The notes under the pieces were generated by a model. The model saw only the letters and a list, made by a program, of their open reading frames with translations, was not told where the DNA came from and searched no databases. The position numbers and the translations under genes were made by a program. A stretch of 64,000 nucleotides of DNA from Methanosphaera sp. BMS (lineage in GTDB: Archaea > Methanobacteriota > Methanobacteria > Methanobacteriales > Methanobacteriaceae), in contig NZ_CP014213.1 of NCBI RefSeq assembly GCF_003268005.1, positions 434,001-498,000 on the forward strand. Direction: 5' to 3'. Shown here piece by piece: positions 22,534-55,172 of the stretch; positions within the stretch are counted from its first letter, which is position 1; each line of letters starts with the position of its first letter.

Positions 22534-25500
22534 ATGGTAAAACTAGATGAATATCAGATAAAAGCAGTAACATATGATGAACCATTCAAATTACTGGTTC
22601 CAGCAGGTCCCGGTGCAGGAAAAACACGTGTATTAATAGAACGTGTAAAGTACTTACTGGAAAATGGTGCAAAGCCAGAATCATTCTTAATTATAACCTT
22701 CTCCAGAGAGGCAGCAAATGAGTTAAAAGAAAGATTAAGTGACAGTAAAGATGGTATTGACATTCATGAAGTAAACAAGATGCAAATCAGTACTATTCAC
22801 AGCTTTTGTAATGAACTCTTAAGAGAATCAGGAAAGAGTGGATTTAACATATTGGATGATGACTTTGATGAAAGAAAAAGTATGTTTATCAGGCGATATC
22901 GTGACGAGCTTGGATTAAAACGTGAAGCACGTATAAGTGGAAGTAAACTAGGTAGTGTAATAAAAAAATTCAATGAATACTCCACATTCAATGTAAACAC
23001 GCCTAAATTAACCGAGTATATCAGGGAAAATTATCCTGTTAGCCAGGAATACCTGGACTTAATAGCCAGCTGTGGTGAAGGAAAGGACTTTGAATACCCA
23101 TATGAGGACATATTTGCCGATGAAGAACTACGTACAAGTGCATCCAATGCCCAGTATCTAGCAGTGGCAGAGGCATATCCAAAATACTTGGAATTATTGG
23201 AAGAAAATAATTATCTTGACTATAATCAACTACAGATAAAAACACTGGAATTACTCGAGGAAAATCCAGATATAGCACTAAACAGTCGATTCAAGAACAT
23301 TCTCATCGACGAGTTTCAGGATACTGACCCTATACAGATGAGAATATTCAAGCATTTCATGGATGACTATGAATCATTTACCATAGTGGGAGATGATGAT
23401 CAAAGTATTTATGGATTCCGTGGAAGTGTACCAGATTACTTTACAAATTTCATAAAAAAATATGGAGCAGATGAACAGATCTTAATAAACAACTACCGCT
23501 CAGGTAAAGAAATAGTTGAATTTAACGAAGAATACATTCAACCATACCGTGGAATGGACAAAGAATTAAAAGCAGCAAATACATTTGATAGTGCTGTTTA
23601 CTCATTACCATATAAGAATAAGGATGAACAGGGATATAACATTGCAAGTCTGATAAAATATCTTAAAAATAGTGGAAAACTCAAGTCTTATAATGATGTG
23701 GGAATATTAATGCGTTCTGTAAACAATGATGCATTAACTTCTATTATCAGGGAACTTAAAAAAGAAGATATTCCATTCGACATGCCGGTTTCAACAAGTA
23801 TAACTGACTGTGATGAAGTAAAGGCAATCATAACACTATTATGGTACTTAAAAAGTGACGGTGATAAATACATACCAACAAAATGGGAACAAAACTGGCT
23901 TAATTTAACATGTTTTGATAATCCATACTTCAAATTAACTGATAATACAATAGAAATATTAAAAAACAAGGAATGTGAATATCAACAAAAAGTCTTGGAA
24001 GTAGCACGTAGAATATATCAGGAAAATAATGTAGAAATAGAATCATTAGACTCTTATAATGAAATATTTAAACAGGAACATGCTCTAAGAGATCAAATAT
24101 TTGAAGAAGCAGGAAGACCATTTACACTAGGACACATGACTATGGATGAAATGGTAGACTTGGGAATAAGTGATGAAGAAGACCTTAAATTCTTTGGCTA
24201 TCTTAACTATCTTAAAGAAAATCAAGAATCAGCCAACAAAGATAAAAGCACACTACTTGAAGTATACTACTTACTGTTGGATATGCTAGGCATAACAGAA
24301 AATCGATTCGAGCAAGAAAACGAGGAAAACACGAGAATATTATTAAACCTTGCACTGCTTAGCCAAACCATAGCAAACTATGAAGAAATAGAATGGAAAC
24401 ATGATTTAAACGGATTATTCTGGTATATGTCTGCAAATCTTGATAAAAGAACAACGCCTGAAATAAAAGAAGAACGTGATGCAGTACAAATAATGACAAT
24501 ACACAAATCCAAAGGACTTCAATTTGAAGTAGTAATAGTAGGAAACATCACACGTACCTACAATGATATAAAAGATTTGGATAAAAAAGCTCAGGAAGAA
24601 CCAAAAACATGGGATAGTTTCCTTCATCAGCCAACATTTCCAACCCCAATAGAATACCTGAAATATAAGGATGGAACAAGACGGGATGAATTAATAAGAG
24701 AATGCCTGGAAGAAAAAAGAATATTATATGTGGCAATGACTAGGGCTAAAAGAATACTCGTACTATCCGATTGGGTTTATAAAAATGATAATCCAGCATC
24801 AGAAGTTATAAAACAGATGAAAGAAAAAATACCTGCATTTAAAGACTTAACATCTGATAACTATGAAGATCTTCCACTAGCATATGACTTTGAAGAAAGC
24901 ACAGATGATACACCTAAAGAAGAAACTATTGATATAAGTTATACAAGCTTCTCAGACTACAGACAATGTCCACATGACTATAACGTTAAATATAACTATG
25001 GATTCAGAAGTACACCAAACGAGTACGTACTCATGGGAACAATAGCACATGGAATAGTCGACCAGATACACCAGAGGCATATCAACGGTCAAGAAGTGAC
25101 AGATGACGTGATAGATGAAATATTTGCCAAGACAGAACATTACAATCGTAACATAGACCCTGAAGACCATGAATACCAACTGGTTAAAGAAGCCATACAT
25201 AAATACTGGGACGAGGATGGAAAAACATGGGATATAATGGCATCAGAATATCCATTCCACGTAATAAAAACAGGCTACAACCTAACCGGAAAAATTGACT
25301 TAATAGTCAAGGAAGGCAATGATATTACAGTAATAGACTTTAAAACAACAGAAAAACCAATAAAAGAGGCCGATAAGAAGAAGTATCTGGAGCAACTAAG
25401 TATCTATGCAATAGCACTACGAGAAGACCCACAATACAAAGACTACAACATCAAAAAAGGAATAATCTACACAATAAAAAACAACAAACAATACCACTTT

Positions 25501-26634
25501 GACCTAACAGATGAAATAATATTCAACATGGAAAAAGAAATAGAGGAAACCGTAGAAAAAATAAAAAACCATGAATATCCACGCTGCAACAAGGCCAACT
25601 GCCAGTCATGCAACCGTTTTAAAACACTATCCAGTTTCGAGGATATAATAGAAATGATAAAATCCGAGTTTAATGGTGACAGGCAACATGACCGACAGAT
25701 TATACAACAGGCAATGCATGACTATGCAGCTCATGCATATGGAGAGGAGATAATCAGGGAACTAGGACGAATGCTATGGGACTACTTAACTCCAGAAGAA
25801 CAGGAAGAATTCAAAAAAGCAGTAGATACAGATCAACCAATAGTCGGCATGTTAAATGATGTTATCAGCCATATCAATGAGAGTAAAAGTGATGAAGCAT
25901 TGGATATACTGGAAAACTTCCTAAAAAAATATCCAAGAACATTCTCTGATGATAATGTAAATGAATATCATAGCTTCAACAATCCAATTGAAGAAGTCCT
26001 ATTTATGAAATACATCCAACCTGAAAAAGAAGTAAGGATAATACCACCAAATGCACCATGGTTTGATGTATACTATATCTATGGAAGACTACTAGTAGAA
26101 CATGAAAGGACCGATGAAGCAATAAAAATCTTTAAAGAAGCACTAAAAATAAATCCAGTTTCAACAGCAACACTACTAATGCTCGCACAACTACATGAAA
26201 AAGACCTACAAGAATACTTCAAATACTCAATGGAATCCTTAAAATATGCATATCAATACCAAGAAGTAGCAGAAAGCTACCGAAAAATAGCAGATTGCTT
26301 CTACAGAAAGGAAAAATATGAATTAGCAGTGGCAATATACCTAAATAGCATGTTTTTTGAAAGTATAATACCAAAAGAAGTAGAAGAAATAGAATCCAAA
26401 GGATATGATGTAAACTTTACAGAAGAAGAAATAATAACTAAACTAGCCGAAAGTGGTGTGCCACCACGTGGAAATCCAGAGGTAGTAAAAACAATCAAAG
26501 ACTTAGCAGAAGAATGTGAAGCACATAAAGACTATGAAGCAGCAAGATTCTTTTATACCAAACTCTTGAACATGACCTATGAAACAGAGCTAATGGAAAA
26601 ACTAGGACAACTGGAAGAATTAATGAAGAAATAA
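22534..26634 (+). CDS. UvrD-type helicase fused to an Fe-S PD-(D/E)xK nuclease and TPR repeats
   Basis: A 1366-residue protein. The SF1 helicase motifs are intact: Walker A PAGPGAGKT (22-31), motif II LIDEFQDTD (about 255), motif III GDDDQSIYGFRG (about 284), motif V TIHKSKGLQFE (about 655) and motif VI YVAMTRAKR (about 732). An AddB/Cas4-like nuclease follows: GKIDLIV and VIDFKTTEK (about 917-938) with four cysteines placed as in Fe-S staple nucleases, one before the core (RQCPHDY, about 811) and three after it (RCNKANCQSCNR, about 1016-1026). The last 200 residues are TPR-like. It leads a five-gene operon of zinc-ribbon and TPR genes. TPRs on such a protein suggest protein partners; the system itself is not one I can name. 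Confidence 0.85.
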   Translation: MVKLDEYQIKAVTYDEPFKLLVPAGPGAGKTRVLIERVKYLLENGAKPESFLIITFSREAANELKERLSDSKDGIDIHEVNKMQISTIHSFCNELLRESGKSGFNILDDDFDERKSMFIRRYRDELGLKREARISGSKLGSVIKKFNEYSTFNVNTPKLTEYIRENYPVSQEYLDLIASCGEGKDFEYPYEDIFADEELRTSASNAQYLAVAEAYPKYLELLEENNYLDYNQLQIKTLELLEENPDIALNSRFKNILIDEFQDTDPIQMRIFKHFMDDYESFTIVGDDDQSIYGFRGSVPDYFTNFIKKYGADEQILINNYRSGKEIVEFNEEYIQPYRGMDKELKAANTFDSAVYSLPYKNKDEQGYNIASLIKYLKNSGKLKSYNDVGILMRSVNNDALTSIIRELKKEDIPFDMPVSTSITDCDEVKAIITLLWYLKSDGDKYIPTKWEQNWLNLTCFDNPYFKLTDNTIEILKNKECEYQQKVLEVARRIYQENNVEIESLDSYNEIFKQEHALRDQIFEEAGRPFTLGHMTMDEMVDLGISDEEDLKFFGYLNYLKENQESANKDKSTLLEVYYLLLDMLGITENRFEQENEENTRILLNLALLSQTIANYEEIEWKHDLNGLFWYMSANLDKRTTPEIKEERDAVQIMTIHKSKGLQFEVVIVGNITRTYNDIKDLDKKAQEEPKTWDSFLHQPTFPTPIEYLKYKDGTRRDELIRECLEEKRILYVAMTRAKRILVLSDWVYKNDNPASEVIKQMKEKIPAFKDLTSDNYEDLPLAYDFEESTDDTPKEETIDISYTSFSDYRQCPHDYNVKYNYGFRSTPNEYVLMGTIAHGIVDQIHQRHINGQEVTDDVIDEIFAKTEHYNRNIDPEDHEYQLVKEAIHKYWDEDGKTWDIMASEYPFHVIKTGYNLTGKIDLIVKEGNDITVIDFKTTEKPIKEADKKKYLEQLSIYAIALREDPQYKDYNIKKGIIYTIKNNKQYHFDLTDEIIFNMEKEIEETVEKIKNHEYPRCNKANCQSCNRFKTLSSFEDIIEMIKSEFNGDRQHDRQIIQQAMHDYAAHAYGEEIIRELGRMLWDYLTPEEQEEFKKAVDTDQPIVGMLNDVISHINESKSDEALDILENFLKKYPRTFSDDNVNEYHSFNNPIEEVLFMKYIQPEKEVRIIPPNAPWFDVYYIYGRLLVEHERTDEAIKIFKEALKINPVSTATLLMLAQLHEKDLQEYFKYSMESLKYAYQYQEVAESYRKIADCFYRKEKYELAVAIYLNSMFFESIIPKEVEEIESKGYDVNFTEEEIITKLAESGVPPRGNPEVVKTIKDLAEECEAHKDYEAARFFYTKLLNMTYETELMEKLGQLEELMKK

Positions 26635-33258: not shown

Positions 33259-35490
33259 CTACTCCATTTCATCATTGTTTGCCATTAATTCATCTGAATT
33301 AATATATTCGGCACCCAAAAATCTTTTTACTATAAAGTATTTTTTTCCATCATCTTCATCAAACTCTAAATATGAAAGAATCCTATATCTATTTCTTGGA
33401 ATTTCCTCATCTTTTTCAAGATATATATTCTCATCATCAATGTCTTCTATGTAATATTCTTCAAATACGTGTTCACCAGTATTGTAAATATACTCTTCTA
33501 AATATACTCCATTGTAATCATCATTTTCCATATCTTTTAGTATATCTATGTCCTCTAAATATGCCTTTGGAACTATTAGATTATCATCTTCTTCATTCAC
33601 CAGGTAGTTTATATCATTTTCAGTGACATATGTTTCACCATCTTCTATTGGCCTAACCTTTCCAAAATAATCCACTACTTCATTTTCATTTGTTTTAAAA
33701 GTATTTATATTGTATGGAATGTAATAAGGGGTATATAGTGCATTGACTTCCTCTTTTGCTTCAAAAAACTTGAATATCTCAGTATCTGGTAAGAATAAAG
33801 GTATTAATTCTAATAGTTTTTCATCATCTTCTTCAACCACATCCCTACATACAAAATGATATTCTGTTTTATTTGAAGTGGGATATTCTAGCTCTAATAT
33901 GTATTTTCCTTCAAAGTCATATTTTGATGCCATGGATGCATGTTCTTCATCAAATACTCCAGATACTGGAATGTAAAAAGAACAATTGAGCATATAATCT
34001 AATATTGAATTATATGTTTCTCCGAATATTGTAACTTTTTCAACTTCATCAATTTCTTGTTCATTTCTATTTAGTACTCTTAACATGTCAAATTGTGAAA
34101 TATTTCTATGATGTGATTTTTCTGCTTCTTTTATAGCATCTTTGGAAATAGTTATTGTCACTAAATTTAAATAGTCAATTAAGTATTCCATAGCATCATC
34201 ATCTAATTCTTTAAGATTTAATTCTTTTAGAATCTTTTGTATGTGTTTTTTGCTAATTCCTTCCGGTAAGTTTTCATCATCTTTATTTTTAGGAACGTAA
34301 TTTTCCTGATATTTGCTACGTCGTTCTTGTTTTAGGAGGGCATATTCTATACAGTTACCTATTAAGTTCTTAAATTCAGGATTGTCTGCATAAAGTAGGT
34401 TGGTCATATTAATTTGTCCTAACTGGACCATATTTTCATCATTAATTTCAAGGTCACTATTTTCTTCAATATAATCTAGAATTATGCTTCTTTTCATCGG
34501 ACCCATATTGCGTGTACTTGTAGCTCCATCATCATAGAATTTAAGGGTATTATCATCTAAAACTCCAAATCTATCAAATCGTATCCATTGAATTTCAGCA
34601 CCATTTAATGCAATCATCATCACAGTATCTGTTCTACCACTATCTGTAGCATAAGGAGTAACTTTTAAATTAATAATCTCATAATTACCATCTATTTCAA
34701 CACGTAAACTCCTGTAGTAACCTACAAATTTACCTCCTGTATTATCTACTTTCCGGTAAAATACTCCTAAATCTTCTATAAACTTATATTTACCAAGTGA
34801 TAAATCATCAATTTTATGGGAAGTATCTAGTAAGCAATCTCTAAAATTAAGAATATATGGCTTTAATTCATCTCTTGTCTGGAAATGTATTGCTTTTGTT
34901 TTATCATCATAATCTTTATTCATCTCTTTTTCTTGTATTTTTTCATTAAATAACTCTTCAAGAGAATATCTATTATAGGAATATTCTGGTATTGGTTCTG
35001 TTTTAATATTTGCATAATCCAGTAATTCATCATATGTTGGAGCATTAACAAGTCTGGTGTAATTATTATTCTCATCTTTTTTAAGAAAATCAGCTTCTAA
35101 ACCATTTGTAACCATTATAACAGGTATATTTAATCGTTCAGCATAACCTTTGGCCTGGTCATATACATCTTCAGTTAAATCAACAGTTTCTGCTTTACAT
35201 TCAACTACCATGAGTAATTCTTTTTTATCAGATTCACCAGATATCAACAAGTCCATCCGTTGATTATTATCATGATAATGTGCCTCTGATTCTTCAATAT
35301 CCATAGCAGCATATGTTATATTAAGTTCCTTATTTAAGTACTCAATTATTTTTTGTCTAACATATTCTTCAGAATGCTGATTAGGACTTACCACACGATA
35401 AATACCTTTAAGTTTATCATACACTTGAAGTTTACCATCTTTATTAACTATCTCCGGATTATCATATTTACTTAAATCAATTTTCATCAT
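33259..35490 (-). CDS. HsdR_N-type PD-(D/E)xK nuclease with a long uncharacterised C-terminus
   Basis: A 743-residue protein. Residues 35-150 match the N-terminal nuclease domain of type I restriction R subunits: QRMDLLIS (D80), VVECKAE (E97, K99) and the following helix VYDQAKGYAERLNIPV. There is no helicase: the remaining 590 residues lack Walker motifs and are very acidic towards the end. The middle (about 190-330) has a beta-rich pattern. No methylase or specificity subunit is adjacent, so this is not a classical type I system. It is divergent from the histone-fold gene, with 105 bases between them. Confidence 0.7.
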   Translation of the reverse strand: MMKIDLSKYDNPEIVNKDGKLQVYDKLKGIYRVVSPNQHSEEYVRQKIIEYLNKELNITYAAMDIEESEAHYHDNNQRMDLLISGESDKKELLMVVECKAETVDLTEDVYDQAKGYAERLNIPVIMVTNGLEADFLKKDENNNYTRLVNAPTYDELLDYANIKTEPIPEYSYNRYSLEELFNEKIQEKEMNKDYDDKTKAIHFQTRDELKPYILNFRDCLLDTSHKIDDLSLGKYKFIEDLGVFYRKVDNTGGKFVGYYRSLRVEIDGNYEIINLKVTPYATDSGRTDTVMMIALNGAEIQWIRFDRFGVLDDNTLKFYDDGATSTRNMGPMKRSIILDYIEENSDLEINDENMVQLGQINMTNLLYADNPEFKNLIGNCIEYALLKQERRSKYQENYVPKNKDDENLPEGISKKHIQKILKELNLKELDDDAMEYLIDYLNLVTITISKDAIKEAEKSHHRNISQFDMLRVLNRNEQEIDEVEKVTIFGETYNSILDYMLNCSFYIPVSGVFDEEHASMASKYDFEGKYILELEYPTSNKTEYHFVCRDVVEEDDEKLLELIPLFLPDTEIFKFFEAKEEVNALYTPYYIPYNINTFKTNENEVVDYFGKVRPIEDGETYVTENDINYLVNEEDDNLIVPKAYLEDIDILKDMENDDYNGVYLEEYIYNTGEHVFEEYYIEDIDDENIYLEKDEEIPRNRYRILSYLEFDEDDGKKYFIVKRFLGAEYINSDELMANNDEME

Positions 35491-35595
35491 AATAACAAAA
35501 CCATATATTTAATAATTCTACAATTAAAATATTATATATAATTGGAATAAAATAAATATTTCGTAAAAAATCAGATTATAATAGAGAGGATATAA

Positions 35596-36039
35596 ATGAG
35601 TGAAAATAGAGAATTAATACTAAATTCAATAAAAACAAATGGCAAACAGATAACTGATGATGCATTAGATAATCTTGAAGAACTTTTAAATGTAGTTGAA
35701 GAGGATCCTTTTGAAACTTTTAATGATAAAATTAATTATATAAATTGGATTACAACGAGGGCAATTCAAGTAGCTAGTGATGCTAAAAGAGATGTTATTA
35801 TAGAAGAAGATTTTCAAATTATGCTTAGAACACCTAAAGATGATGTCACATTACCATTTACACCAATCAAAAGATTAATAGATAATAACACTTCAAAAAA
35901 TATAAACAAAGACGCAGCAATACAATTAACATCAGATCTTGATGAATATTGCAGAGGATTATTACTAACGGCTGATAATATTGCAACAGAAAAAGGACAT
36001 AAAAAAATTATGAAGGAAGATATAGATCAATCAATATAA
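35596..36039 (+). CDS. Pseudodimeric (two-domain) histone-fold protein
   Basis: A 147-residue protein. Residues 86-147 align without gaps to archaeal histones such as HMfB: LPFTPIKRLI matches LPIAPIGRII, and KKIMKEDI matches RKTIKAEDI. Residues 6-77 form a second, more diverged histone fold with about 16 extra residues in the central helix; it keeps the Arg-Asp clamp (R65, D72), whereas the C-terminal fold has His135 with D142. Ordinary histones here are about 68 residues long; fused pairs are known in Methanopyrus and haloarchaea. It sits between the HsdR_N nuclease gene (divergent) and the giant helicase gene (convergent, 9 bases apart). A role in the defence island is inference. Confidence 0.75.
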   Translation: MSENRELILNSIKTNGKQITDDALDNLEELLNVVEEDPFETFNDKINYINWITTRAIQVASDAKRDVIIEEDFQIMLRTPKDDVTLPFTPIKRLIDNNTSKNINKDAAIQLTSDLDEYCRGLLLTADNIATEKGHKKIMKEDIDQSI

Positions 36040-36048
36040 TTACTAGTA

Positions 36049-39000
36049 TTACTCATTATATTTTTTAATTATATCCTCCTTTAAGACATATCCTTCTTTT
36101 TCTAATGTAATAGTATCAACTTCTAATTCTTTTAATAGGGGAGTACATCTTTCTTTAAATATTTTACCCATTGATTTATAACCAATTAAACTGGAAGCTG
36201 TTTTAAGCAAATCCTTTTCATCCAAACAAGTATTTAATAGTAATGATATGATAATAGATTGTTTAAGCTCCATATCAGATATTGTTTTTATATTAGGTTT
36301 TTCTCTTCTTCTAACATATTTTAAAGTATACTTTCCATAATAATAAAAGTCATTATCTTCAATTATAGGAAATATGTTACAAACTCCCTTGAGATTCATA
36401 TCTATTTCATTTTTAAATTTCTTGGTTGCACTTGTTCTACCTAATGCTTCTTTTACTCTAGAATAAATATCATTAACATGAATAGGTTGTTCACATAGGA
36501 TTATGTCTCTAATCAATTGTATATTATTTGAATAAGGCGTTTGTGCTTTAAAGTATTCATAATCTTTAACATATTTATTTATTTGTTCCTCCTTGATTTC
36601 TTCCACAGTTTTAACTTCTAATTCGGGTTCAAAGATTACTTCTTCTTTCTCAAGTATTTTTTCGTCATCTTTATGTTTAATTGCATATTCAACTGCTTCT
36701 ATGAGTCGTTTTTTACTATCATTCTGATTATAGAACCAATCCCAGGACCATATTCTGTAGAATGTCCATCCCAGGTTTTCTAGTACATCTTGACGAAGTC
36801 TATCTCTATCTCTAGCAGAACGGGATGAATGATAATTTGCACCATCACATTCAATTGCTAAAAGGAATCTGTCGTTATCATCTGGATCAACTAGTGCTAA
36901 ATCTATTCTATAACCTGCTATTCCAACTTGTTTTTCTATCAGATAACCCTTTTCATCTAGGTAGTTATATACACTTTCCTCGAAAGGTGAATCAAAGTCT
37001 TCTCCAGTTCTATAGTTTTTAGGAAACTCCTTTTTCTCTGCAAAATATAAATAATTTTTAAGTACTTGTGCTCCACGTGAGGCTTTTTCAGGTAATTCTA
37101 AATCGGATGATTTGAAGTTAGCAAATATCACACATCTTTCTTTTGCACGGGTAATAAGTACATTTAATCGTTTTTCTCCTCCATCTCTATTTAATGGTCC
37201 AAAGGTTGGTGATAATTTATGATTTATATCAAATCCATAACCTATGGAGATAAGGATAATATCTCTTTCATCTCCTTGTATGTTTTCTAGGTTCTTTATG
37301 AAAAATCCATCTTTCTTATCTTGATCAAAGAATGGAAACATCTCGGGATTATCTTTAAGTTTAATTTCTAGCTGATCCTCGATAGCATCACGTTGTGCTG
37401 TACTGAATGTTCCCACACCTACGGTTTTTTTATCACCATATTTTCTAAATACTTTCATTGCATAATCTATGATGTTTTTTGCTTCTTTAATATTACGTCT
37501 ACTTTTTCCTCGATCATAAACGCTAGTTGGATCATATTCAAATTGAATTCCAAGCTCATGTGAATCTTTAATTGTTGATGGGAAAACATTTAAATTATTG
37601 TTATAAAATTCCATATTTGAAAATGCTATTAAGGAGTCATGTTTACTTCTGTAATGCCATTTTAACATTTTAGATTCAAATGATGTTTTACTTAACTCCA
37701 ATATACTTTCAATACCCTCTGTGTCATATTCATCAGGTTCTTCATCTTCTTTTTCTAATGATACATCAAAGAATGATGTTGGAGGTAATTGTTTGGTATC
37801 TCCCATTATAACGTAATGTTTTCCTCTAAGTAATGCTCCTATTGAATCTTCAACTTTTACTTGACTGGCTTCATCAAAGATTACATAGTCAAAGTAAGAC
37901 TCGAAATATTTTGAATCAAGATATTGGGATATACTCATTGGACTCATCATTAAACATGGTTTAATATCTTTTAAAATTGGTTGGATAATGCCTAATATTT
38001 GTCTTATCGGTTTGATTTTACGTTTTTTACCAATTTCCTTATTTAACATGCCTAATGGTGAATTCATGGCTAGTGATGAAGCCGTATTTGGTCTTTTTCC
38101 TGCAAGTTGTTCTTTTATTCTATATTGATTTAATTGTAATGATTTTCTATCTAACTGTTTGAATTCTTCAATCTTGTTATTGTGAATATTATAGTTGAAT
38201 TTTCTTAAAATAGCATTATTTTGTTTGATATCATTTATACAATTGTTTAAAAAGTTATATTCAAATAAATCTACTATGGAATCATATTTTATTTGATCTT
38301 GTTTAATTAAATCAATTATTTCATTCGTATATTCATTACTATATTCTTGACATAATTCTATGAATTGATGATAGGTATGTAATGAATTTTTATTCTCCTT
38401 AAGTTCTGTTAGTAGCACATTGAATTTTTCATCACTTTCTAAAAATATTCTATCAAAAATATACTTATCATCTATTTTAAGAGTTGTGGTGATTATATCG
38501 AATAACTCTTTAGTTTCATTGTATTTGTTGTTTAGTTGTGTTGTTAGTTCGTTTGGTGTTGGGTTGTTTGTTTGTAGGTAGTTTATTGTTTGTGTTGTGT
38601 ATGTGTTGTTTTGTATTTGTTTGTTTAGGTTTATCATTTCATTTAGTTGTGTTGTTAGTTCGTTTGTGTTACTTTTTATTGATTGGTAGTTTTTGAAGTA
38701 TTTTTTACCATTATCATCGTTTGAGTGGATTTGGTTTTGGAGTTGTTGGATTTCTTTGATTTTGGATAGTTGGTTTATTATTGTTGGGATATTGTTTGGT
38801 TCGAATGATGGATCGGTGGAGTGTAGTTGGGTTGTTATCTCTTTTTTTCTGAGGTATGTTTCTTTATTGTCGTATATTTGTTTGATTATTTTGTTGAATT
38901 CTGTGTTTTCTTCTGTGAATATGTTTTCGAAGTTAATTTTGTTTTTTATTTGTAGTGTTGTTGTTATTTTTTCATATTGTTCTTTTGTTTGGTTGTATTT

Positions 39001-42000
39001 GTTGTTTAGTTGTGTTGTTAGTTCGTTTGGTGTTGGGTTGTTTGTTTGTAGGTAGTTTATTGTTTGTGTTGTGTATGTGTTGTTTTGTATTTGTTTGTTT
39101 AGGTTTATCATTTCATTTAGTTGTGTTGTTAGTTCGTTTGTGTTACTTTTTATTGATTGGTAGTTTTTGAAGTATTTTTTACCATTATCATCGTTTGAGT
39201 GGATTTGGTTTTGGAGTTGTTGGATTTCTTTGATTTTGGATAGTTGGTTTATTATTGTTGGGATATTGTTTGGTTCGAATGATGGATCGGTGGAGTGTAG
39301 TTGGGTTGTTATCTCTTTTTTTCTGAGGTATGTTTCTTTATTGTCGTATATTTGTTTGATTATTTTGTTGAATTCTGTGTTTTCTTCTGTGAATATGTTT
39401 TCGAAGTTATATTTGTTTTTTATTTGTAGTGTTGTTGTTATTTTTTCATATTGTTCTTTTGTTTGGTTGTATTTGTTGTTTAGTTGTGTTGTTAGTTCGT
39501 TTGGTGTTGGGTTGTTTGTTTGTAGGTAGTTTATTGTTTGTGTTGTGTATGTGTTGTTTTCTATTTGTTTGTTTAGGTTTATCATTTCATTTAACTGTCT
39601 ATTTAATTCATTTGTATCACTAGCTATTGACTGATAATTTGTGAAATATCTTTCACCAAAATAATCTTTTCTATGCACTTCTTCTCGGATTTTTTGAATA
39701 TAATCAATATTTTCCAGTTGTTCTAAAATTCTTGAAATGTCGTTAATATCAAAAGAGGGGTCAATAACTCTTAATTCTGAAATAATCTCTTTTTTACGTT
39801 TAAGTGTTTGTTGAATTTCAATACATCTGTCATATAAAACAGAATCGTTAATTAATTCATTTCTTACAAGTAACTGACTTTTAACTGAAATTAACTCATT
39901 ATTCTTAGATATAATCTCATTAAAATCATTTATAATTACTTCTTTATCCACTTCTCTATTATAATAAGAATTAAATTCATTTTTCAATGTTTTAAATTCT
40001 GAATCCATGAATTTAAACATTTTATTGCTTTTTTCTATAAATAAATTTAATTTATATTCTAGTTGATTATCATTTAACGCATTCTTTAATGGAGATTGAT
40101 TAACAAAATCAGATAGTTGCTTAAATCTATTTATCATGTCCGGATTATTTTCAACAAAATAAATATTCACTATAGAATCATCAATAATTCTTTTTATATT
40201 ACTTAACTGGCCACTATAATTGTTTACATTTATATCAAGAGAATTAAGATTAATATATTTTACTTTGTTTTGATATTCTGTAATGTTTGTTATTAAATTT
40301 GATAGTTCTTCTGTTGAGTCACAGTATGTTTTATCATTTAAGAAGTTTATCTTATCATTTAATTCGTAGCAGGAATAATTTTTATCTTTATTTATTCCTG
40401 TCGTGGCATAGATGTTGTTTTTTATGGTAATAAGGTTTGTGTATTGGTTGTTGTATGTTTCGATGTCTTCAAGTAATGTATTGGTTTCATCTATGTTTAG
40501 ATTATCTATATTTGGTGAGTCTTTTAATTGGTCATTTATGGTTGATAGTTCTGTAGTATATTCTTCCACATTTAATTCAAGGCTATTGGTGTTAATGGAT
40601 GTTATTTCATTTTGATATTCTGTAATGTTTGTTATTAAATTTGATAGTTCTTCTGTTGAGTCACAGTATGTTTTATCATTTAAGAAGTTTATCTTATCAT
40701 TTAATTCGTAGCAGGAATAATTTTTATCTTTATTTATTCCTGTCGTGGCATAGATGTTGTTTTTTATGGTAATAAGGTTTGTGTATTGGTTGTTGTATGT
40801 TTCGATGTCTTCAAGTAATGTGTTGGTTTCATCTATGTTTAGATTATCTATATTTGGTGAGTCTTTTAATTGGTCATTTATGGTTGATAGTTCTGTAGTA
40901 TATTCTTCCACATTTAATTCAAGGCTATTTGTGTTAATGGATGTTATTTCATTTTGATATTCTGTAATGTTTGTTATTAAATTTGATAGTTCTTCTGTTG
41001 AGTCACAATATATTTTATCATTTAAATAAGAAATTTTTTCATCTAATTCATCAATAAGGTAATTATTATCACTGTTAATACCCGTAATATTATAAATATC
41101 ATTTTTTAAAGAAATTAAATTATTTAAAGAATTATCAAATGAATCAATAGCTGAATATAACTCATCAAATTGAGAATCATCAATATACTCAATATCAAAT
41201 CCATACCAAAAATTCTTCTTAACCGGTGCTACAAGTTCATAAATAGATGCTATCTCAGTTAAGTTATTTACAGTCTCTTGACGTAGTTTTTTTGTCATAA
41301 GTTGTGGATTATTGATAGTGTAATTATGAATAACCTGATTATTATCATTTAAAGATTTTTCAACCACATTTAAAGAACCTATAATAGTATAAGCATTCAA
41401 ACCAGTATTACCATATTCCTTAAAAATTTCCACTGAATAATCATTCAAATCTTGTTTAAGTAAGTCCAACTTGTCAAGATCAGATGTATCCTTCAGTTTT
41501 TCATAATTTAACTGTAATGTTCTATCCATCTCATCAAGAAAATCCCTTTTATTGTATTTGGCACCATGAATTTCAAGACAAGCATCACCTAAACCCACAC
41601 TATCCAGTCTAGATTTAACAACATCAAGAGCAGCCTTCTTTTCACTGACAAATAAAATCGATTTCTCATTTGCCAAAAGTTCAGATATGAGATTAACAAT
41701 AGTCTGAGATTTACCCGTCCCAGGAGGACCTTCAACAACAAGATCTTTACCCTTAATAATCTCTTCAATAACATCAACCTGTGATGAATCAGCATCTAAA
41801 ACATTATATACCTCATAAGAACCCTTAGAATCTAAATTATTTGTATAATCAGTATCATAATCTAATGAAGGTGTTTCACCACCAAAAAATAGATTTTTCA
41901 CATTATTTGATTCAAGATTAGGCCATTGATTAAATTCCAAATCTTTATACATGACAAACTTTTTAAAATTAAAGTTAGCTAGGTAAATATCTTTAGTTAT

Positions 42001-42648
42001 TCTCCAATCTTGCTTAGCTAGAAATTTATTAACATTACTTAAATACTCATTTAATTCCTCTCTATCATTCAATTCTTCAAATAATGGAAAATCAAGACCT
42101 TGTTCTGATAATTTAAATTGTAATGATAAATTAGAACGAATATCATCGTCATTCCATGATAATTTGAAGGATGTTTCAATAGATTCTCTTTCTAACTCTA
42201 CAGGGATTAATATTAAAGGGGCAGAATACTTATTATTACTTTTAGGATCAATCCATTCAACAAAACCTAATGCTAAAAATAAACTATTAAAACCTTGTTC
42301 TTGAATCATGGATCTATTATCATTTAAAGAACGTAATAACCATCTATTCAAAGTTTTTTCTTCCAAATTAGTTTGCAAATAGTTATCAGTATGTGATTCC
42401 TTAACTTTATCAAAACTATGCCAAGTATTATCCTCTTGGACAAAACTTCCTTTTCTAGGAAGAAAACCCATTCTTTTTTGTTTTAAAATTAACAAATCAA
42501 ATAATTCAACAATATTCTCATCTACTATTTCGAGAGATTTGGCAGTCTTTTTAAAATTAAGAAGTTTATTTCTCATGGACATATCTAATAACTTTTCACG
42601 ATACTCTGTTATCTTATTTACAATAATTTCATTTTCATTAGCAATCAT
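36049..42648 (-). CDS. Giant DUF4011/SF1 helicase with Vsr-like nuclease and DUF3320
   Basis: A 2199-residue protein. Order: DUF4011 at the N-terminus (YREKLLDMSMRNKLLNF, about 17-33), Walker A GPPGTGKS (about 305), a coiled-coil insert of about 1250 residues, helicase motif II FDEASQ (about 1588), later SF1 motifs (LITRAKERC, about 1830), a Vsr/MTES_1575-type nuclease (YRIDLAL, then AIECDGANYHSS, about 1890-1985), and a DUF3320-like end (about 2050-2110). Such proteins are known defence genes. Unusual here is the length of the insert between motifs I and II, with two sets of near-identical tandem repeats. It converges on the histone-fold gene. The start has GGGG about 8 bases before the ATG. 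Confidence 0.85.
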   Translation of the reverse strand: MIANENEIIVNKITEYREKLLDMSMRNKLLNFKKTAKSLEIVDENIVELFDLLILKQKRMGFLPRKGSFVQEDNTWHSFDKVKESHTDNYLQTNLEEKTLNRWLLRSLNDNRSMIQEQGFNSLFLALGFVEWIDPKSNNKYSAPLILIPVELERESIETSFKLSWNDDDIRSNLSLQFKLSEQGLDFPLFEELNDREELNEYLSNVNKFLAKQDWRITKDIYLANFNFKKFVMYKDLEFNQWPNLESNNVKNLFFGGETPSLDYDTDYTNNLDSKGSYEVYNVLDADSSQVDVIEEIIKGKDLVVEGPPGTGKSQTIVNLISELLANEKSILFVSEKKAALDVVKSRLDSVGLGDACLEIHGAKYNKRDFLDEMDRTLQLNYEKLKDTSDLDKLDLLKQDLNDYSVEIFKEYGNTGLNAYTIIGSLNVVEKSLNDNNQVIHNYTINNPQLMTKKLRQETVNNLTEIASIYELVAPVKKNFWYGFDIEYIDDSQFDELYSAIDSFDNSLNNLISLKNDIYNITGINSDNNYLIDELDEKISYLNDKIYCDSTEELSNLITNITEYQNEITSINTNSLELNVEEYTTELSTINDQLKDSPNIDNLNIDETNTLLEDIETYNNQYTNLITIKNNIYATTGINKDKNYSCYELNDKINFLNDKTYCDSTEELSNLITNITEYQNEITSINTNSLELNVEEYTTELSTINDQLKDSPNIDNLNIDETNTLLEDIETYNNQYTNLITIKNNIYATTGINKDKNYSCYELNDKINFLNDKTYCDSTEELSNLITNITEYQNKVKYINLNSLDINVNNYSGQLSNIKRIIDDSIVNIYFVENNPDMINRFKQLSDFVNQSPLKNALNDNQLEYKLNLFIEKSNKMFKFMDSEFKTLKNEFNSYYNREVDKEVIINDFNEIISKNNELISVKSQLLVRNELINDSVLYDRCIEIQQTLKRKKEIISELRVIDPSFDINDISRILEQLENIDYIQKIREEVHRKDYFGERYFTNYQSIASDTNELNRQLNEMINLNKQIENNTYTTQTINYLQTNNPTPNELTTQLNNKYNQTKEQYEKITTTLQIKNKYNFENIFTEENTEFNKIIKQIYDNKETYLRKKEITTQLHSTDPSFEPNNIPTIINQLSKIKEIQQLQNQIHSNDDNGKKYFKNYQSIKSNTNELTTQLNEMINLNKQIQNNTYTTQTINYLQTNNPTPNELTTQLNNKYNQTKEQYEKITTTLQIKNKINFENIFTEENTEFNKIIKQIYDNKETYLRKKEITTQLHSTDPSFEPNNIPTIINQLSKIKEIQQLQNQIHSNDDNGKKYFKNYQSIKSNTNELTTQLNEMINLNKQIQNNTYTTQTINYLQTNNPTPNELTTQLNNKYNETKELFDIITTTLKIDDKYIFDRIFLESDEKFNVLLTELKENKNSLHTYHQFIELCQEYSNEYTNEIIDLIKQDQIKYDSIVDLFEYNFLNNCINDIKQNNAILRKFNYNIHNNKIEEFKQLDRKSLQLNQYRIKEQLAGKRPNTASSLAMNSPLGMLNKEIGKKRKIKPIRQILGIIQPILKDIKPCLMMSPMSISQYLDSKYFESYFDYVIFDEASQVKVEDSIGALLRGKHYVIMGDTKQLPPTSFFDVSLEKEDEEPDEYDTEGIESILELSKTSFESKMLKWHYRSKHDSLIAFSNMEFYNNNLNVFPSTIKDSHELGIQFEYDPTSVYDRGKSRRNIKEAKNIIDYAMKVFRKYGDKKTVGVGTFSTAQRDAIEDQLEIKLKDNPEMFPFFDQDKKDGFFIKNLENIQGDERDIILISIGYGFDINHKLSPTFGPLNRDGGEKRLNVLITRAKERCVIFANFKSSDLELPEKASRGAQVLKNYLYFAEKKEFPKNYRTGEDFDSPFEESVYNYLDEKGYLIEKQVGIAGYRIDLALVDPDDNDRFLLAIECDGANYHSSRSARDRDRLRQDVLENLGWTFYRIWSWDWFYNQNDSKKRLIEAVEYAIKHKDDEKILEKEEVIFEPELEVKTVEEIKEEQINKYVKDYEYFKAQTPYSNNIQLIRDIILCEQPIHVNDIYSRVKEALGRTSATKKFKNEIDMNLKGVCNIFPIIEDNDFYYYGKYTLKYVRRREKPNIKTISDMELKQSIIISLLLNTCLDEKDLLKTASSLIGYKSMGKIFKERCTPLLKELEVDTITLEKEGYVLKEDIIKKYNE
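38521..39590 (-). repeat. 474-bp in-frame tandem repeat (2.25 copies) inside the giant helicase gene
   Basis: Period 474 bp (158 codons): 38521-38994, 38995-39468 and a partial copy to about 39590. Copies are nearly identical in DNA; visible differences include AATTTTG versus TATATTT near 38934 and 39408. The coding strand is strongly A/C-rich here (the plus strand reads mostly T and G), unlike the rest of the gene. The encoded repeat is a coiled coil rich in Asn, Thr, Gln and Lys. Near-identity points to recent duplication or gene conversion. Confidence 0.9.
40268..41024 (-). repeat. 342-bp in-frame tandem repeat (2.2 copies) inside the giant helicase gene
   Basis: Period 342 bp (114 codons): 40268-40609, 40610-40951 and a partial copy to about 41024. 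The two full copies differ at only a few positions (for example TATTGG versus TGTTGG in the part coding for ETNTLLEDIE). The repeat is independent in sequence from the 474-bp repeat in the same gene, so the helicase insert has been expanded by two separate events. Confidence 0.9.
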
Positions 42649-43582: not shown

Positions 43583-45748
43583 TTACTCATTATTTAATTC
43601 TTTATAGTTTAATCCACTTACTATTTCCATATTTGTGTGTGTTACCAAGTCTTGTAAATCATCAAAGTTGAAAATTAATCCTTTAATAGTAGTCTCTTGT
43701 TGTTCTTCTGGTAAATATGGACTATATTTTGTTCGGAATTCTTCTATTGTAATAGAATTTAAATATGTTTCAGTCTCATGATTAATATTGTTTTCATCTA
43801 AGTTATTATAGAATAAAACTATATCTTCAACTATATCATCGGGTGATACTAATTTAATATAGTAATCATTTTCTTCTGATTCAATAATTTCAACATGTTC
43901 TGATATTAAATTGCTTAATAAAAGATTAACTTTACCTCCAGCAAAAGTGTAGATATGTATTACTTGAAGATCTTCTTTATATCTAAATGTTATCGGAACT
44001 ATGTTATAATTTAAATTAAATTCTTTTGTATATTCAATTAAATTTTTTAACCATATATTGAATTTATCATTGAATTTTTCTAGTAATGTATGATCAAAAT
44101 TATCAAGTAATATATCATATATTTGTCTACATAGCAGATATGATTGATATTGATTTCCAGAGTTCCATCCAGGAATTTCTTTAGTTTTTGGAGATTTTTT
44201 TACATAAATTATATAATTGTTATAATCAATTTCAGTTATTTCCCAGTATTGACCACTTAAAATGAATCTTGCACCTGATTTTAATCCAAATACATAAAGA
44301 ACATCTAGTTCTCCAATTTCTTTAAGACCATTTTTTATTTTAAATGATGTTGATGTGGTAAATACGGAATAAAAATTAAGGAAATTCATTTGACCAAATA
44401 GTTTTTCAAATTCATAACCTAATGATAATTTTTTACCTATCAAATCTAATATCTTGGAATCAACTAAGTGTTTAATCAATTCTTTATATGTGTCCTTTGA
44501 AATGTCCTTAAATACATACGTGTCATGTAATATGTAATATGCATCAGGAATGTTTATTTCTGTCTTTTGGAAGATAATACTGAGAATTTGATGTAAATAA
44601 ATATCCAATGCATATTTACGTATATTAATATCTTCCACTTTATTTTCATATGATAAATTCATTTGAGCTAAATATTTTAAGCTGGTAATATCATCAGATG
44701 TAAAGAGTAATGCTCTCTCTATTTTACTTTTTCTACCACTTCTACCAATTTTTTGCATAAAAGAACTTATTTCATTAGGTGGTGTAATCATAGAGACTAC
44801 ATCAATATTTCCAATATCGATTCCAAGTTCTAATGTGTTAGTACTAACCATAATTCCTTTTTCTTGATTTTTAAACAAATCTTCATTTTCTTCACGTAAA
44901 TCTTTATTAATGGATGAATGATGAAGATAAATGTTTGTATCTAATTTATCTTTTAATAAAGTGTTAATTTCTTCAACACTTTGTCTTGATTTACAAAATA
45001 ATAATAGTTTTTTGTTAGAATATGGTTTTAAATTTTCAGCAATCTCCATTTTTTTATCATAAAATTGGGTTTTATATTTTATGACAGGTTTGGCCGAAGT
45101 TTTTATTACCTTAACTGGATTTTTATAATCAATCCACTTTGAAACTACCTCTGGATTTCCTACTGTAGCGGATAATCCTATTTTTATAAATCCATCCGTA
45201 TATTCTGTTAATCGTTTAAGTAATGAATTTAACTGTATTCCACGTTCACTTTCAATAAAATAATGTATTTCATCAATGATTACATATTTAATGTTTCCAA
45301 ATATTTTCTTCTTTTGACCTTCACTTTTATTTATTAACATTACTTCTAATGATTCAGGTGTTGTTAATAAAATATCCGTGGGTTTTTTAAGATATTTATT
45401 TTTCATTGATACTGATACATCACCATGCCATTTTGTAGCACTAAGTCCAAAATATTTATTCCAGGAATGTAAACGTTTATCCATATCATTAATCAAAGCT
45501 TTTAAAGGAGCAATATAAAGTACACTAGTTGCATCTAAACTTTTAGTAATTAAATTATTGTATATTGGGATTAATGCTGCTTCTGTTTTACCACTAGCAG
45601 TAGGAGCAATAATTAATGAATTTTTATTATTTAATATTATAGGAATAGTTTCTTTTTGAATTTCAGTTAAATCAGTCCACCCTAAGTTGTTTTGTAGAAA
45701 ATATTTTAACTTATAATCCAATAAGCCTAATACATCATTACCAGTCAT
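43583..45748 (-). CDS. Lhr-like DEAD/DEAH helicase, BrxHI-type
   Basis: A 721-residue SF2 helicase: IAPTASGKTEAAL (motif I, about 38), TPESLEVML, IIDEIHYF (motif II, about 160), GLSATVGNP (motif III), STNTLELGIDIG and IGRSGRK (motifs V and VI). The layout matches Lhr-type helicases and BrxHI of BREX loci. The start is the ATG at 45748 (a TTG precedes it); it overlaps the BrxD-like gene by 11 bases, so the two are tightly coupled. No PglZ, PglX or BrxC gene is present in the window, so this is not a complete BREX system. Confidence 0.8.
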   Translation of the reverse strand: MTGNDVLGLLDYKLKYFLQNNLGWTDLTEIQKETIPIILNNKNSLIIAPTASGKTEAALIPIYNNLITKSLDATSVLYIAPLKALINDMDKRLHSWNKYFGLSATKWHGDVSVSMKNKYLKKPTDILLTTPESLEVMLINKSEGQKKKIFGNIKYVIIDEIHYFIESERGIQLNSLLKRLTEYTDGFIKIGLSATVGNPEVVSKWIDYKNPVKVIKTSAKPVIKYKTQFYDKKMEIAENLKPYSNKKLLLFCKSRQSVEEINTLLKDKLDTNIYLHHSSINKDLREENEDLFKNQEKGIMVSTNTLELGIDIGNIDVVSMITPPNEISSFMQKIGRSGRKSKIERALLFTSDDITSLKYLAQMNLSYENKVEDINIRKYALDIYLHQILSIIFQKTEINIPDAYYILHDTYVFKDISKDTYKELIKHLVDSKILDLIGKKLSLGYEFEKLFGQMNFLNFYSVFTTSTSFKIKNGLKEIGELDVLYVFGLKSGARFILSGQYWEITEIDYNNYIIYVKKSPKTKEIPGWNSGNQYQSYLLCRQIYDILLDNFDHTLLEKFNDKFNIWLKNLIEYTKEFNLNYNIVPITFRYKEDLQVIHIYTFAGGKVNLLLSNLISEHVEIIESEENDYYIKLVSPDDIVEDIVLFYNNLDENNINHETETYLNSITIEEFRTKYSPYLPEEQQETTIKGLIFNFDDLQDLVTHTNMEIVSGLNYKELNNE

Positions 45749-46997
45749 CAAATATCTCTTCTTCAGTTTCTATTGAATTTTCTTCTTCTTTGAATAATTT
45801 AATAATCTCTTCTTTATTATTCAATTGTTCTTGGTTTTGTTCAACTGTATCAAGTACACTTATTAACTCACGAATATATGTTCTAGGTACAATAACTCCA
45901 CCAGTAAGGCCAGTATTAGCAACACGTATGTCTATAAATTCACTAACAGCTTCTTTAGCATTACTAATATCCCATTGATATGTTTCTTGATGCATGTCTA
46001 TGATTAAATCAGAAATTTTTTTAACATCATTTTCCTTAAAACCATGTAAATTAACGATAGGAGTTCTAAGATCATCATAATCACTTTCTAGAACATTAAC
46101 TATTCTGCTGTATAATGCATCATATGACTTTACACCCTTCTTTTCATCTTCATAGAATTGTTGTGTACCTGCAAATACAAATAGCATGCCATTAAATGTT
46201 CCATTGTTACAGTTATCATATATATCTCTCATATAATTATAGGCTACAGAACGTGATTTTTCTAGTGGTGTTTTAAGAATAAATTCTGCCTCATCAACTA
46301 AGATTATAAGACCAGAGTAGCCGATTGAATTAATAAATGTGGATAAAGCTGTTAAAAAGTGGAAAGCATTTTCCTTTGTAACATCACCTTTAACACCAAA
46401 CTTTTTCTTTTCAGTAAAAGGTATATTTGAATCTCCTCTTAGCCATGCTTGGGCATAATTAGCAGTTTCGTCATCATGTTCTTCTCTAGCATGGAAATAT
46501 TTTTCAATAGCAGTAGCAAATGAATTGGAACAGTCCCTAGTAGCTATTAAGTCCTCTTTAATACGATGTTCAAGGTATTCCTGTCTTTCCTCTATTTCAT
46601 CGTCATCTTCATATTCATCTTCAGCTTCAACTTTAAGTCGGGTAATCCACCGGTCAATAATATGATTTAATGATTCTCCTGTCTTACATTTTAATGTCTT
46701 AGCGATTTCCTTGTAAATATTTTCAATCTTATGAAACTGAAGATTCTGACTAAGAGTAATTCTAGAAACAACAAAATTATCATTAAAAGCAGTTTCTTCT
46801 ATTAACTTTAAGAAAAATGATTTACCGGCACCAAACTCACCATTAATGAACTTAGTAACAGCAGTACCATTTTCAACTCTGTCTAATATATTTTTAAATT
46901 CATTAAGTTCATCTTCTCTACCAACTGAAAAATCCAGAATAGATTCTCGAGGTATATTCCCATTTTTCAAGGCATTTAATGTATCTTGATAATCCAT
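45738..46997 (-). CDS. BrxD-like (DUF2791) P-loop ATPase
   Basis: A 419-residue ATPase with Walker A GEFGAGKS (53-60), Walker B LIILVDEAEF (about 232-241) and the sensor run FAGTQQFYEDE (about 280). It is of the type found as BrxD beside Lhr-like helicases. There is a long acidic stretch at about 125-140 (EAEDEYEDDDEIEERQE). The ribosome binding site GAGGAG lies in the end of the EVE-like gene, with 3 bases between the two genes. It probably loads or gates the helicase encoded downstream. Confidence 0.8.
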   Translation of the reverse strand: MDYQDTLNALKNGNIPRESILDFSVGREDELNEFKNILDRVENGTAVTKFINGEFGAGKSFFLKLIEETAFNDNFVVSRITLSQNLQFHKIENIYKEIAKTLKCKTGESLNHIIDRWITRLKVEAEDEYEDDDEIEERQEYLEHRIKEDLIATRDCSNSFATAIEKYFHAREEHDDETANYAQAWLRGDSNIPFTEKKKFGVKGDVTKENAFHFLTALSTFINSIGYSGLIILVDEAEFILKTPLEKSRSVAYNYMRDIYDNCNNGTFNGMLFVFAGTQQFYEDEKKGVKSYDALYSRIVNVLESDYDDLRTPIVNLHGFKENDVKKISDLIIDMHQETYQWDISNAKEAVSEFIDIRVANTGLTGGVIVPRTYIRELISVLDTVEQNQEQLNNKEEIIKLFKEEENSIETEEEIFDDW

Positions 46998-53081: not shown

Positions 53082-55172
53082 CTAATTGTCATCTCTTTTT
53101 ATTTTTTGAGTTGTATCATATGCCTGTTTAATTAATTTATAAACATAATTAATATCATCTTCTTTTTTAAGATATACCATAGTATTGCCAGTACCATAAT
53201 GTCCTATATCAGTTAAATCATTACATAATCCTTTAGGGTCCTTTATTTTATCTATTCCAATATCTAAGTATAATTTTAATCCTTGCTTTTGAGGATCTAT
53301 TTCCGTAAAATTTTTAGTTGTTTTGAATACGATATATTGTTTGTTAAATATTTGAATAACATTTTCATCTATATCTAAAATCATATCTGATAATATGTTA
53401 TATAATTTTCGAGAATGTGTATGTTCTTCCAAATGTTTGTGATCATTAATTGTATATACCATTCCTGTTTTTATTTCTTTAATTTCTTCTAATTTCTTTT
53501 CTATTTCTGATGTAACTAATGGATATTCCCAAATTGATTTGATTTCGTTGAATAATATGTCTGCACGATTATTTATCTCTTTTTCGTTCCATGAAGTTAG
53601 ATTTGATAAATATTTATTTAAATGTAATTTAGAATCTTTAAAACCCTCTTCCATATTTAATTTTTCATCAAATGTTTTATTGCCCATTTCTGAATTTCTA
53701 GCTGTTAAAGTTAAATTTCCTATTGTATTTAAATATGTTTCATGAATTTCTTTATAGTTTTCACCTAAACATTCCTTCCATTGACTATTTAAGTTTTGTG
53801 GCATTATGTGTTCTATAGTACAATTTTCCACAATTACAATTTCTTTATTATGATAATTTTCTAGTTTATATAGCATGTGTCTTCCATTTTTATTGTAAAT
53901 CTTTTTGGTTTTACATGATTCTTTAAACTCTTCATCTTTTGGGAATCGTTTATTATCATTTTTCGGATATTGTAGAAGATTTACAATAAATGAATTAAGA
54001 TAATCCTCCTTATCTATGGATTTATGAAGTATTAAAAATACTGATCCCATAGCATTTGTATTTAAACTACAAACATATCTTCGTAGAACATAACTTTCAA
54101 TATATTTAGTAATTTGAATGAAGTCTTCTTTAGTTAAATTTATTTCTGGATTGACATAATCATCATAAACACTTAATAAAAATCTATATACAACTGTATT
54201 ATTTAGACTTCGAAGACTGTCAAATACTCTTTTAAGATCTTCATCTTTTTCATTTCCATAAAACATATTATTATAGTATTCTGCATTACTATGAATATCT
54301 TTAACTAGTAATTTAATATTATCTCCATACTTAAGATTTGCATAATGTTTAAATTCCTTATAAATATCGGAATTAATAGGATTATTTAGTTTTGACATTA
54401 AATATGAACTAAAAAATAAATCAAAGTCTTTTTCATCAATATCGCTAAAAATAGATTCGATATTTTTCCAATAATCATTATAAAGAGTTTTTTGATCTTT
54501 AGAATCCATAAGAACATAGTTACGAATCAAGTCACTATTTGTAAGTTTTTTTCCAGTAGAATTTAAACTTTCAAAAATTGATTGTGGTTTATCCTCTCTT
54601 TGCAAACGAACTGAAATGAAAATTAATTTATTAAAACCTTTCCAAAAAATTTCCATATCCTCATTAGATAAAAGTTTATTAAAATATTTGTAGTTTTCTT
54701 GAATATTTATGGAGTCATTATCATCAAAATCCAATTTCTTATCTGAAAATATTGAAGATATGATTTTATCTAATGTCACATCATCTTTTTCACGCAAATA
54801 AAGTTTTTTAGTCTTTTCCATGTTATTATTAATAATATTATTATTAAAAACCCCCATAGCATAATTTTTATTAATTTCTTTATATTTTTTACAAAAACTA
54901 CATAATAATAAGGTTAGTGTTGTTATACGTTGTTGTCCATCAATAATATCTAAATCAGAAATAGAACCAATGACACCATTGTCTTCGACTTTATAAACAA
55001 TAGACCCAATAAAATAACTTTGCCTATCATCATTAGCTCCGATTTCCATTATGTCATTAAATAATTCTTTACATTCTTCTTTACTCCAACTGTATTCTCT
55101 TTGATAAAGGGGTATGTTCATATTAATTTGTTGACTAATAAAATTTTTAAAATAAAATTCTTGAACCTGCAA
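53082..55172 (-). CDS. GmrSD-type DUF262/DUF1524 protein with C-terminal DUF5655
   Basis: A 696-residue single-chain type IV restriction-like protein. The DUF262 domain has IPLYQREYSW (about 20) and IIDGQQR (about 77-82), the NTP-handling motif. DUF1524 has a His-Me finger nuclease motif CTIEHIMPQ (about 450). A DUF5655 domain closes it (about 580-690; DPKGLCNDLTDIG), clearly related to the C-terminus of the protein at 47861-51424. GmrSD enzymes cleave DNA with sugar-modified hydroxymethylcytosine. The start is TTG, with AAGGAG about 9 bases upstream. Transcribed alone. Confidence 0.88.
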   Translation of the reverse strand: MQVQEFYFKNFISQQINMNIPLYQREYSWSKEECKELFNDIMEIGANDDRQSYFIGSIVYKVEDNGVIGSISDLDIIDGQQRITTLTLLLCSFCKKYKEINKNYAMGVFNNNIINNNMEKTKKLYLREKDDVTLDKIISSIFSDKKLDFDDNDSINIQENYKYFNKLLSNEDMEIFWKGFNKLIFISVRLQREDKPQSIFESLNSTGKKLTNSDLIRNYVLMDSKDQKTLYNDYWKNIESIFSDIDEKDFDLFFSSYLMSKLNNPINSDIYKEFKHYANLKYGDNIKLLVKDIHSNAEYYNNMFYGNEKDEDLKRVFDSLRSLNNTVVYRFLLSVYDDYVNPEINLTKEDFIQITKYIESYVLRRYVCSLNTNAMGSVFLILHKSIDKEDYLNSFIVNLLQYPKNDNKRFPKDEEFKESCKTKKIYNKNGRHMLYKLENYHNKEIVIVENCTIEHIMPQNLNSQWKECLGENYKEIHETYLNTIGNLTLTARNSEMGNKTFDEKLNMEEGFKDSKLHLNKYLSNLTSWNEKEINNRADILFNEIKSIWEYPLVTSEIEKKLEEIKEIKTGMVYTINDHKHLEEHTHSRKLYNILSDMILDIDENVIQIFNKQYIVFKTTKNFTEIDPQKQGLKLYLDIGIDKIKDPKGLCNDLTDIGHYGTGNTMVYLKKEDDINYVYKLIKQAYDTTQKIKRDDN

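Follow-up and report, generated by a model that had tools for sequence, protein, structure and literature searches.

Acidic archaeal histone doublets are a known kind of protein (PMC13260811, PMC13088155), and the acidic doublet cluster has a median of 143 aa and a pI of 4.7 (PMC13260811). In HMk from M. kandleri (1F1E) and the halobacterial acidic doublets, a single acidic chain of about 145-150 aa contains both histone folds, and HMk-type proteins serve as a main chromatin protein. Capstone variants, which are single-fold, conserved by descent and pair with other histones, are marked at HMfB position 49 by a hydrophobic or an acidic residue, the latter predicted to stop dimer-dimer stacking; examples are Msp_0383 and Msm_1260, from Methanosphaera stadtmanae and Methanobrevibacter smithii, and Methanosphaera has unusually many histone paralogues (PMC7776873). 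The genes for RdgC- and IHF-associated histones are conserved partners of a particular non-histone gene (PMC11390915).

The window analysed here (the whole stretch of 64,000 nucleotides from Methanosphaera sp. BMS) encodes a protein that resembles HMk and the halobacterial acidic doublets in carrying two folds in one acidic chain. The preliminary description had placed a two-domain histone-fold protein at 35596-36039, with a C-terminal fold aligning gap-free to archaeal histones and a second, diverged N-terminal fold with an insertion in its central helix; our searches bear out each of these points. The gene and its parts are as follows:

35596..36039, plus strand: acidic double-histone-fold protein P0001, 147 aa (ORF, Pfam, NCBIfam, pI 4.51)
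35602..35826, plus strand: N-terminal histone fold, residues 3-77 (shuffles, AlphaFold2, NCBIfam, residue mapping)
35695..35718, plus strand: loop inserted in the N-terminal fold at residues 34-41, splitting its alpha2 (AlphaFold2, gap in the MAFFT alignment)
35848..36033, plus strand: C-terminal histone fold, residues 85-146 (Pfam, NCBIfam, PDB histones, AlphaFold2)

The reading frame opens with the ATG at 35596, closes with the stop at 36037-36039 and has a GAGAGG-like ribosome-binding site immediately 5' of it; the N half of the product (pI 4.21) is more acidic than the C half (pI 5.63). The evidence for a histone fold is strong in the C-terminal half (PF00808 at residues 85-146, E=4.7e-8) and weaker in the N-terminal one. 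The C-terminal fold also matches the NCBIfam model archaea_histone (residues 87-145, E=8.7e-10) and the solved HMfB and HMfA structures in the PDB, gap-free in the case of HMfB, and judged by these matches it is an unmistakable archaeal histone. The N-terminal half alone gave no histone match in Pfam, just KIX/SPATA19 noise; among 18,950 NCBIfam models its sole match was archaea_histone (E=0.006, residues 47-73), and its score against a home-made Methanosphaera histone HMM was reached by none of 5000 shuffles.

The alignment supplied to AlphaFold2 for structure prediction consisted of 48 singlet histones and extended over the C-terminal half only; in the resulting model the N-terminal half nevertheless shows helices in a histone-like order as well (alpha1 at residues 3-14, alpha2 split into 21-33 and 42-62, alpha3 at 70-77), where pLDDT was about 80-87 outside loop 34-41. 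A run on the doublet sequence alone was set aside as uninformative (pLDDT 54.6). The best Foldseek matches of the model in the PDB include single-chain H2A.Z-H2B, 1f1e (rank 7, probability 1.00), Sos and archaeal histones. Comparison with the fused histone of Methanopyrus, proposed in the preliminary description, thus gave a divided outcome: the helices of two folds are predicted, but the model (pTM 0.49) superposes on 1f1e across both folds with an rmsd of about 18 A, and its two folds are not packed as an intramolecular handshake. Since the handshake is absent from the model, we take the two histone folds as a result and infer from them that the doublet is probably a self-contained pseudodimer. 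Apart from this feature of the model, it departs from HMk-type doublets in four respects: identity to 1f1e is 14%, alpha2 of the N-terminal fold is broken, the protein coexists with ten ordinary singlet histones instead of acting as the main chromatin protein, and its gene lies in a defence island beside a histone-tailed nuclease.

The residues that contact DNA set the doublet apart from the singlets of the same genome. Each of the five own-genome singlets compared retains HMfB R10, R19, K53 and T54, and most of them also have H49. The C-terminal fold has R93, N102, K136 and K137 at these four positions, so that R10 and K53 are kept, R19 is lost and T54 is changed; the N-terminal fold has L, Q, D and V, and all four main DNA contacts are gone. 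HMfB position 49, the dimer-dimer residue at which H49 supports stacking, is occupied by D62 in the N-terminal fold and by E132 in the C-terminal fold. The fold-defining and clamp residues are retained in both folds, the clamp being R65/D72 in the first and H135/D142 in the second, as had been described. By this mapping the doublet has lost most canonical DNA contacts. Taking into consideration (i) the pI of 4.5, (ii) the lost contact residues and (iii) the acidic position 49 of each fold, we read the sequence as evidence against strong canonical DNA binding, and the best explanation of the protein appears to be that it is not a genome-packing histone. The preliminary interpretation, in which the doublet would shield or mark self DNA, bend DNA or act in anti-silencing, therefore holds for the two folds and the defence setting and is less well supported in its proposed jobs: all of them assume DNA binding, and an acidic, contact-poor sequence speaks against binding of the strong, canonical kind.

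The doublet resembles the capstones in that position 49 is acidic in each of its folds (E132, D62), and differs from them in joining two folds in one chain. The E49 singlets compared keep the RKT loop, whereas the doublet has lost most DNA residues; an ordinary E49 singlet is also encoded in its own genome. In a maximum-likelihood tree the C-terminal fold falls beside the E49 clade with support of 99/99 and an end branch of 5.85, and the topology test leaves an alternative placement standing (p-AU 0.43). Descent of the C-terminal fold from capstones is, on this sequence comparison, favoured but not established.

The gene divergent to the doublet encodes the nuclease that the preliminary description had classed as HsdR_N-type, which Pfam confirms. 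Its features are:

33259..35490, minus strand: HsdR_N-type nuclease with a histone-fold extension, 743 aa (ORF, Pfam, NCBIfam, alignment)
35053..35370, minus strand: HSDR_N_2 PD-(D/E)xK nuclease domain, residues 41-146 (PF13588, E=1e-19)
34075..34251, minus strand: cryptic histone fold, residues ~414-472 (profile searches, shuffles, reverse search)
33262..34053, minus strand: highly acidic C-terminal tail, residues 480-743 (pI, Pfam, NCBIfam)

The nuclease motif D80...E97-x-K99 is conserved in the aligned relatives, and the PD-(D/E)xK motif is intact. A second histone-bearing protein at this locus emerged when PF00808 was searched against the complete 2.87-Mb genome: 12 places matched, namely ten singlet histones, the doublet and the stretch 34075-34251 on the minus strand of the window (E=0.026), which lies within the nuclease gene. 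Nuclease segment 395-490, searched alone, had PF00808 as its top Pfam match (E=0.010), with TFIID-31kDa, another histone fold, second, and its sole match among 18,950 NCBIfam models was archaea_histone (E=2.7e-4, i.e. 0.00027); the full-length protein matched that NCBIfam model with E=0.0065. The score of the fold against the histone HMM was reached by none of 5000 shuffles. In 152 genomes the matches to the extension were mostly short histone-sized ORFs, and seven of these proved to be singlet histones. The fold was missing from the Pfam scan of the full-length protein, and its histone-profile scores of 16.5-21.3 bits lie under the curated cut-offs of 21.4 and 50. The claim of a histone fold at residues ~414-472 of the nuclease rests on the agreement of independent searches together with its adjacency to the doublet, and on this basis the three unusual histone folds of the genome lie in two genes 105 bp apart.

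Stand-alone proteins of the HsdR_N family (PF13588), which are about 400 aa long, resemble the nuclease: they align end to end with its residues 1-405 and share the D...ExK motif. The three relatives compared, which measure 396-402 aa and come from the same genome (a paralogue), from genome G005 and from a Hymenobacter plasmid, all end where the histone fold begins, and the histone fold and acidic tail (residues ~410-743) have no counterpart in them; the fold, with the tail, is therefore an added module. The tail, of about 263 aa, has a pI of 4.05 with 69 D/E against 21 K/R, and it matched no known family in Pfam or NCBIfam. The own-genome paralogue (~400 aa, C1:166425) has no histone fold and lies beside another DUF4011 helicase gene, with a 517-aa gene between them (G000:C1:160277-167585); the same order of HsdR_N, 517-aa and DUF4011 genes is found on contig C92 of G005, and HsdR_N proteins and DUF4011 helicases may be recurrent partners.

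The histone fold of the nuclease was missed in the preliminary description, and its presence points to a protein-protein role of the doublet with the nuclease. Histone folds are built to pair. Taking into consideration this property and that: (i) the two odd genes are adjacent, (ii) the doublet has lost most of its DNA contacts, (iii) position 49 carries opposite charges in the two proteins, E132 and D62 in the doublet and K458 in the nuclease; a protein partnership is the most economical reading, although the compatible charge pair is suggestive only. We hypothesize, with confidence a little short of even, that the doublet serves the histone-tailed HsdR_N nuclease as its dedicated partner protein, either a regulator or a docking subunit. 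The doublet would dock on the C-terminal histone fold of the nuclease, through a dimer-dimer four-helix-bundle contact or a handshake exchange, and once docked would hold the nuclease inactive, or position it on DNA, until infection. Both the physical contact and the direction of control are predictions of this model, and the arrangement suggests that a histone-type interaction was recruited to control a defence nuclease. The use of a double fold for protein contacts and not for DNA packing, putative here, is a likeness to the Sos histone domain (1q9c was among the Foldseek matches) and to bacterial double histone folds and further non-chromatin double folds; those act inside a single chain or have no known partner, whereas the doublet has a candidate partner in the neighbouring nuclease, and the likeness comes with no demonstrated sequence kinship. 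RdgC- and IHF-associated histones differ in having other partners and folds, single histone folds and no nuclease. The idea that the nuclease fold and the N-terminal fold of the doublet are recent copies of each other was rejected, their alignment being no better than the chance level of other proteins in the window.

The same pair of genes could serve to read chromatin. The nuclease fold would then pair with itself or with the ten host singlets and sense wrapped (self) versus naked (incoming) DNA, and the doublet, as a decoy or a capstone-like plug, would occupy the nuclease fold or terminate histone filaments at the site and so protect the host. Such a role is in keeping with the unusually many histone paralogues of Methanosphaera and the published E49 capstones (PMC7776873), with the acidic position 49 of both doublet folds, with the place of the C-terminal fold beside the E49 clade and with the basic residues K419 and R462, which the nuclease fold keeps at HMfB positions 10 and 53. 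We nevertheless consider it rather unlikely, as the equivalent of R19 is E428 in the nuclease fold and the tree placement is not firm, given the p-AU of the alternative. Similarly on the unlikely side is a broader reading as a chromatin-based defence module, where a nuclease with a fused histone fold and a purpose-made doublet would tell packaged host DNA from naked DNA, or a histone-fold inhibitor would restrain the nuclease.

Archaea that wrap their DNA in histones need their defence nucleases to tell host chromatin from invading DNA. A nuclease with a built-in histone fold and a private histone doublet offers a small, concrete and testable system for this question of self and invader. If the partnership is true, the roles of prokaryotic histone folds would extend from packaging to the regulation of immune proteins, and for the chromatin-based module we know of no earlier case in which histone folds give a prokaryotic immune nuclease its specificity or its control.

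The preliminary description had put the doublet in a defence island, between the nuclease and a DUF4011/Vsr-like helicase gene, and the surroundings agree with this:

35491..35595, between the divergent doublet and nuclease genes: AT-rich intergenic region, 105 bp (inverted repeats only)
36049..42648, minus strand: DUF4011-SF1 helicase-MTES_1575 nuclease of the ProA/Hhe/PDC-S37 type, 2199 aa, convergent neighbour of the doublet
43583-46997, minus strand: Shango- or BREX-like pair of a BrxHI/SngC-type helicase and a BrxD/SngB ATPase
53082-55172, minus strand: GmrSD-type enzyme (type IV restriction) that contains a DUF5655 domain
22534-26634, plus strand: UvrD helicase-PDDEXK-TPR protein, 1366 aa, followed by TPR and zinc-ribbon genes

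With an HNH-helicase gene also present, the doublet and the nuclease of this gut methanogen lie in a dense Methanosphaera defence island, and from this setting the pair may be assigned a role in antiviral defence. The ProA/Hhe-type helicase gene, whose DUF4011 and MTES_1575 domains were recovered with Pfam, ends 10 bp past the doublet stop. Its central region contains long, near-perfect, in-frame tandem repeats with spacings of ~342 bp and ~474 bp and duplicated antisense ORFs at 40412/40754 and 38693/39167, and relatives of the 2199-aa protein match chiefly residues 1-600 and ~1270-2190.

The 105-bp region is a probable shared promoter region of the doublet and the nuclease, which brings in a third explanation: the doublet could control transcription from this promoter or of the island as a DNA-associated factor resembling NF-Y/NC2 or a capstone, the histone fold of the nuclease being incidental. 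PF00808 spans eukaryotic histone-fold transcription factors too, R93 and K136/K137 are kept in the C-terminal fold, and divergent genes across an AT-rich region would suit a local regulator. We hold this to be quite improbable, since the doublet is acidic overall, its N-terminal fold has none of the four main DNA contacts, the explanation accounts in no way for the nuclease fold, and a search of 35491..35595 for operator repeats returned inverted repeats only, with no clear operator.

Searches of 152 Methanobacteriota genomes, IMG/VR and plasmids gave no relative of the doublet or of the nuclease extension; for the doublet, GTDB contigs gave singlets only and no full-length relative, and phages likewise gave no full-length relative. 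Three matches that seemed to reach the N-terminal half (L117, L122 and L157) proved to be singlets with unrelated upstream sequence, and the other matches of the doublet or of its N-terminal half, in all collections searched, were ordinary singlets or unrelated proteins. PF00808 had 157 matches at E<=1 in 20 Methanosphaera-group genomes, and among the matches listed (all but ~3) there was neither a second double-fold ORF nor another histone fold in a long ORF. Co-occurrence of the doublet with an HsdR_N or DUF4011 gene in related genomes, as suggested in the preliminary description, did not appear: the 152 genomes yielded no relative of the doublet and no recurrent partner-gene association for the doublet or for the nuclease extension, and 20 helicase neighbourhoods examined hold no doublet and no HsdR_N-histone fusion. 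The pair of doublet and histone-tailed nuclease is thus known from a single genome in the collections searched, and conservation, with no relatives found, gives no support.

This last result, with the very long branch and with no conservation that would show selection, would fit a passenger, by which we mean a histone variant, decaying or specific to this lineage, that was caught in a fast-changing island and has no functional connection with the genes beside it. However, the doublet has an open frame, both of its folds retain their clamp and fold-defining residues, helices are present in each half of the AlphaFold2 model, and the only other non-singlet histone fold of the genome sits in the adjacent gene, which leaves a mere passenger a distinctly unlikely explanation beside the partnership with the nuclease. 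In the main texts of the mostly open-access papers searched, we found no study that links histone folds with defence islands or with nucleases of the restriction type; the combination of such a nuclease, bearing a histone fold, with a neighbouring histone doublet was likewise absent from these papers and is seen once, here.

Two further arrangements of histone genes were observed in related genomes. In three of them (L094, L096 and L098) a canonical singlet histone lies ~3-5 kb from a ProA/Hhe-type helicase in a shared gene order, which we treated as synteny, rejecting the idea that such helicases are regular companions of histones. At G003:C1:1496929-1497116 a histone gene is apparently in two halves, found as separate matches to profile positions 1-35 and 35-64, and is probably a pseudogene.
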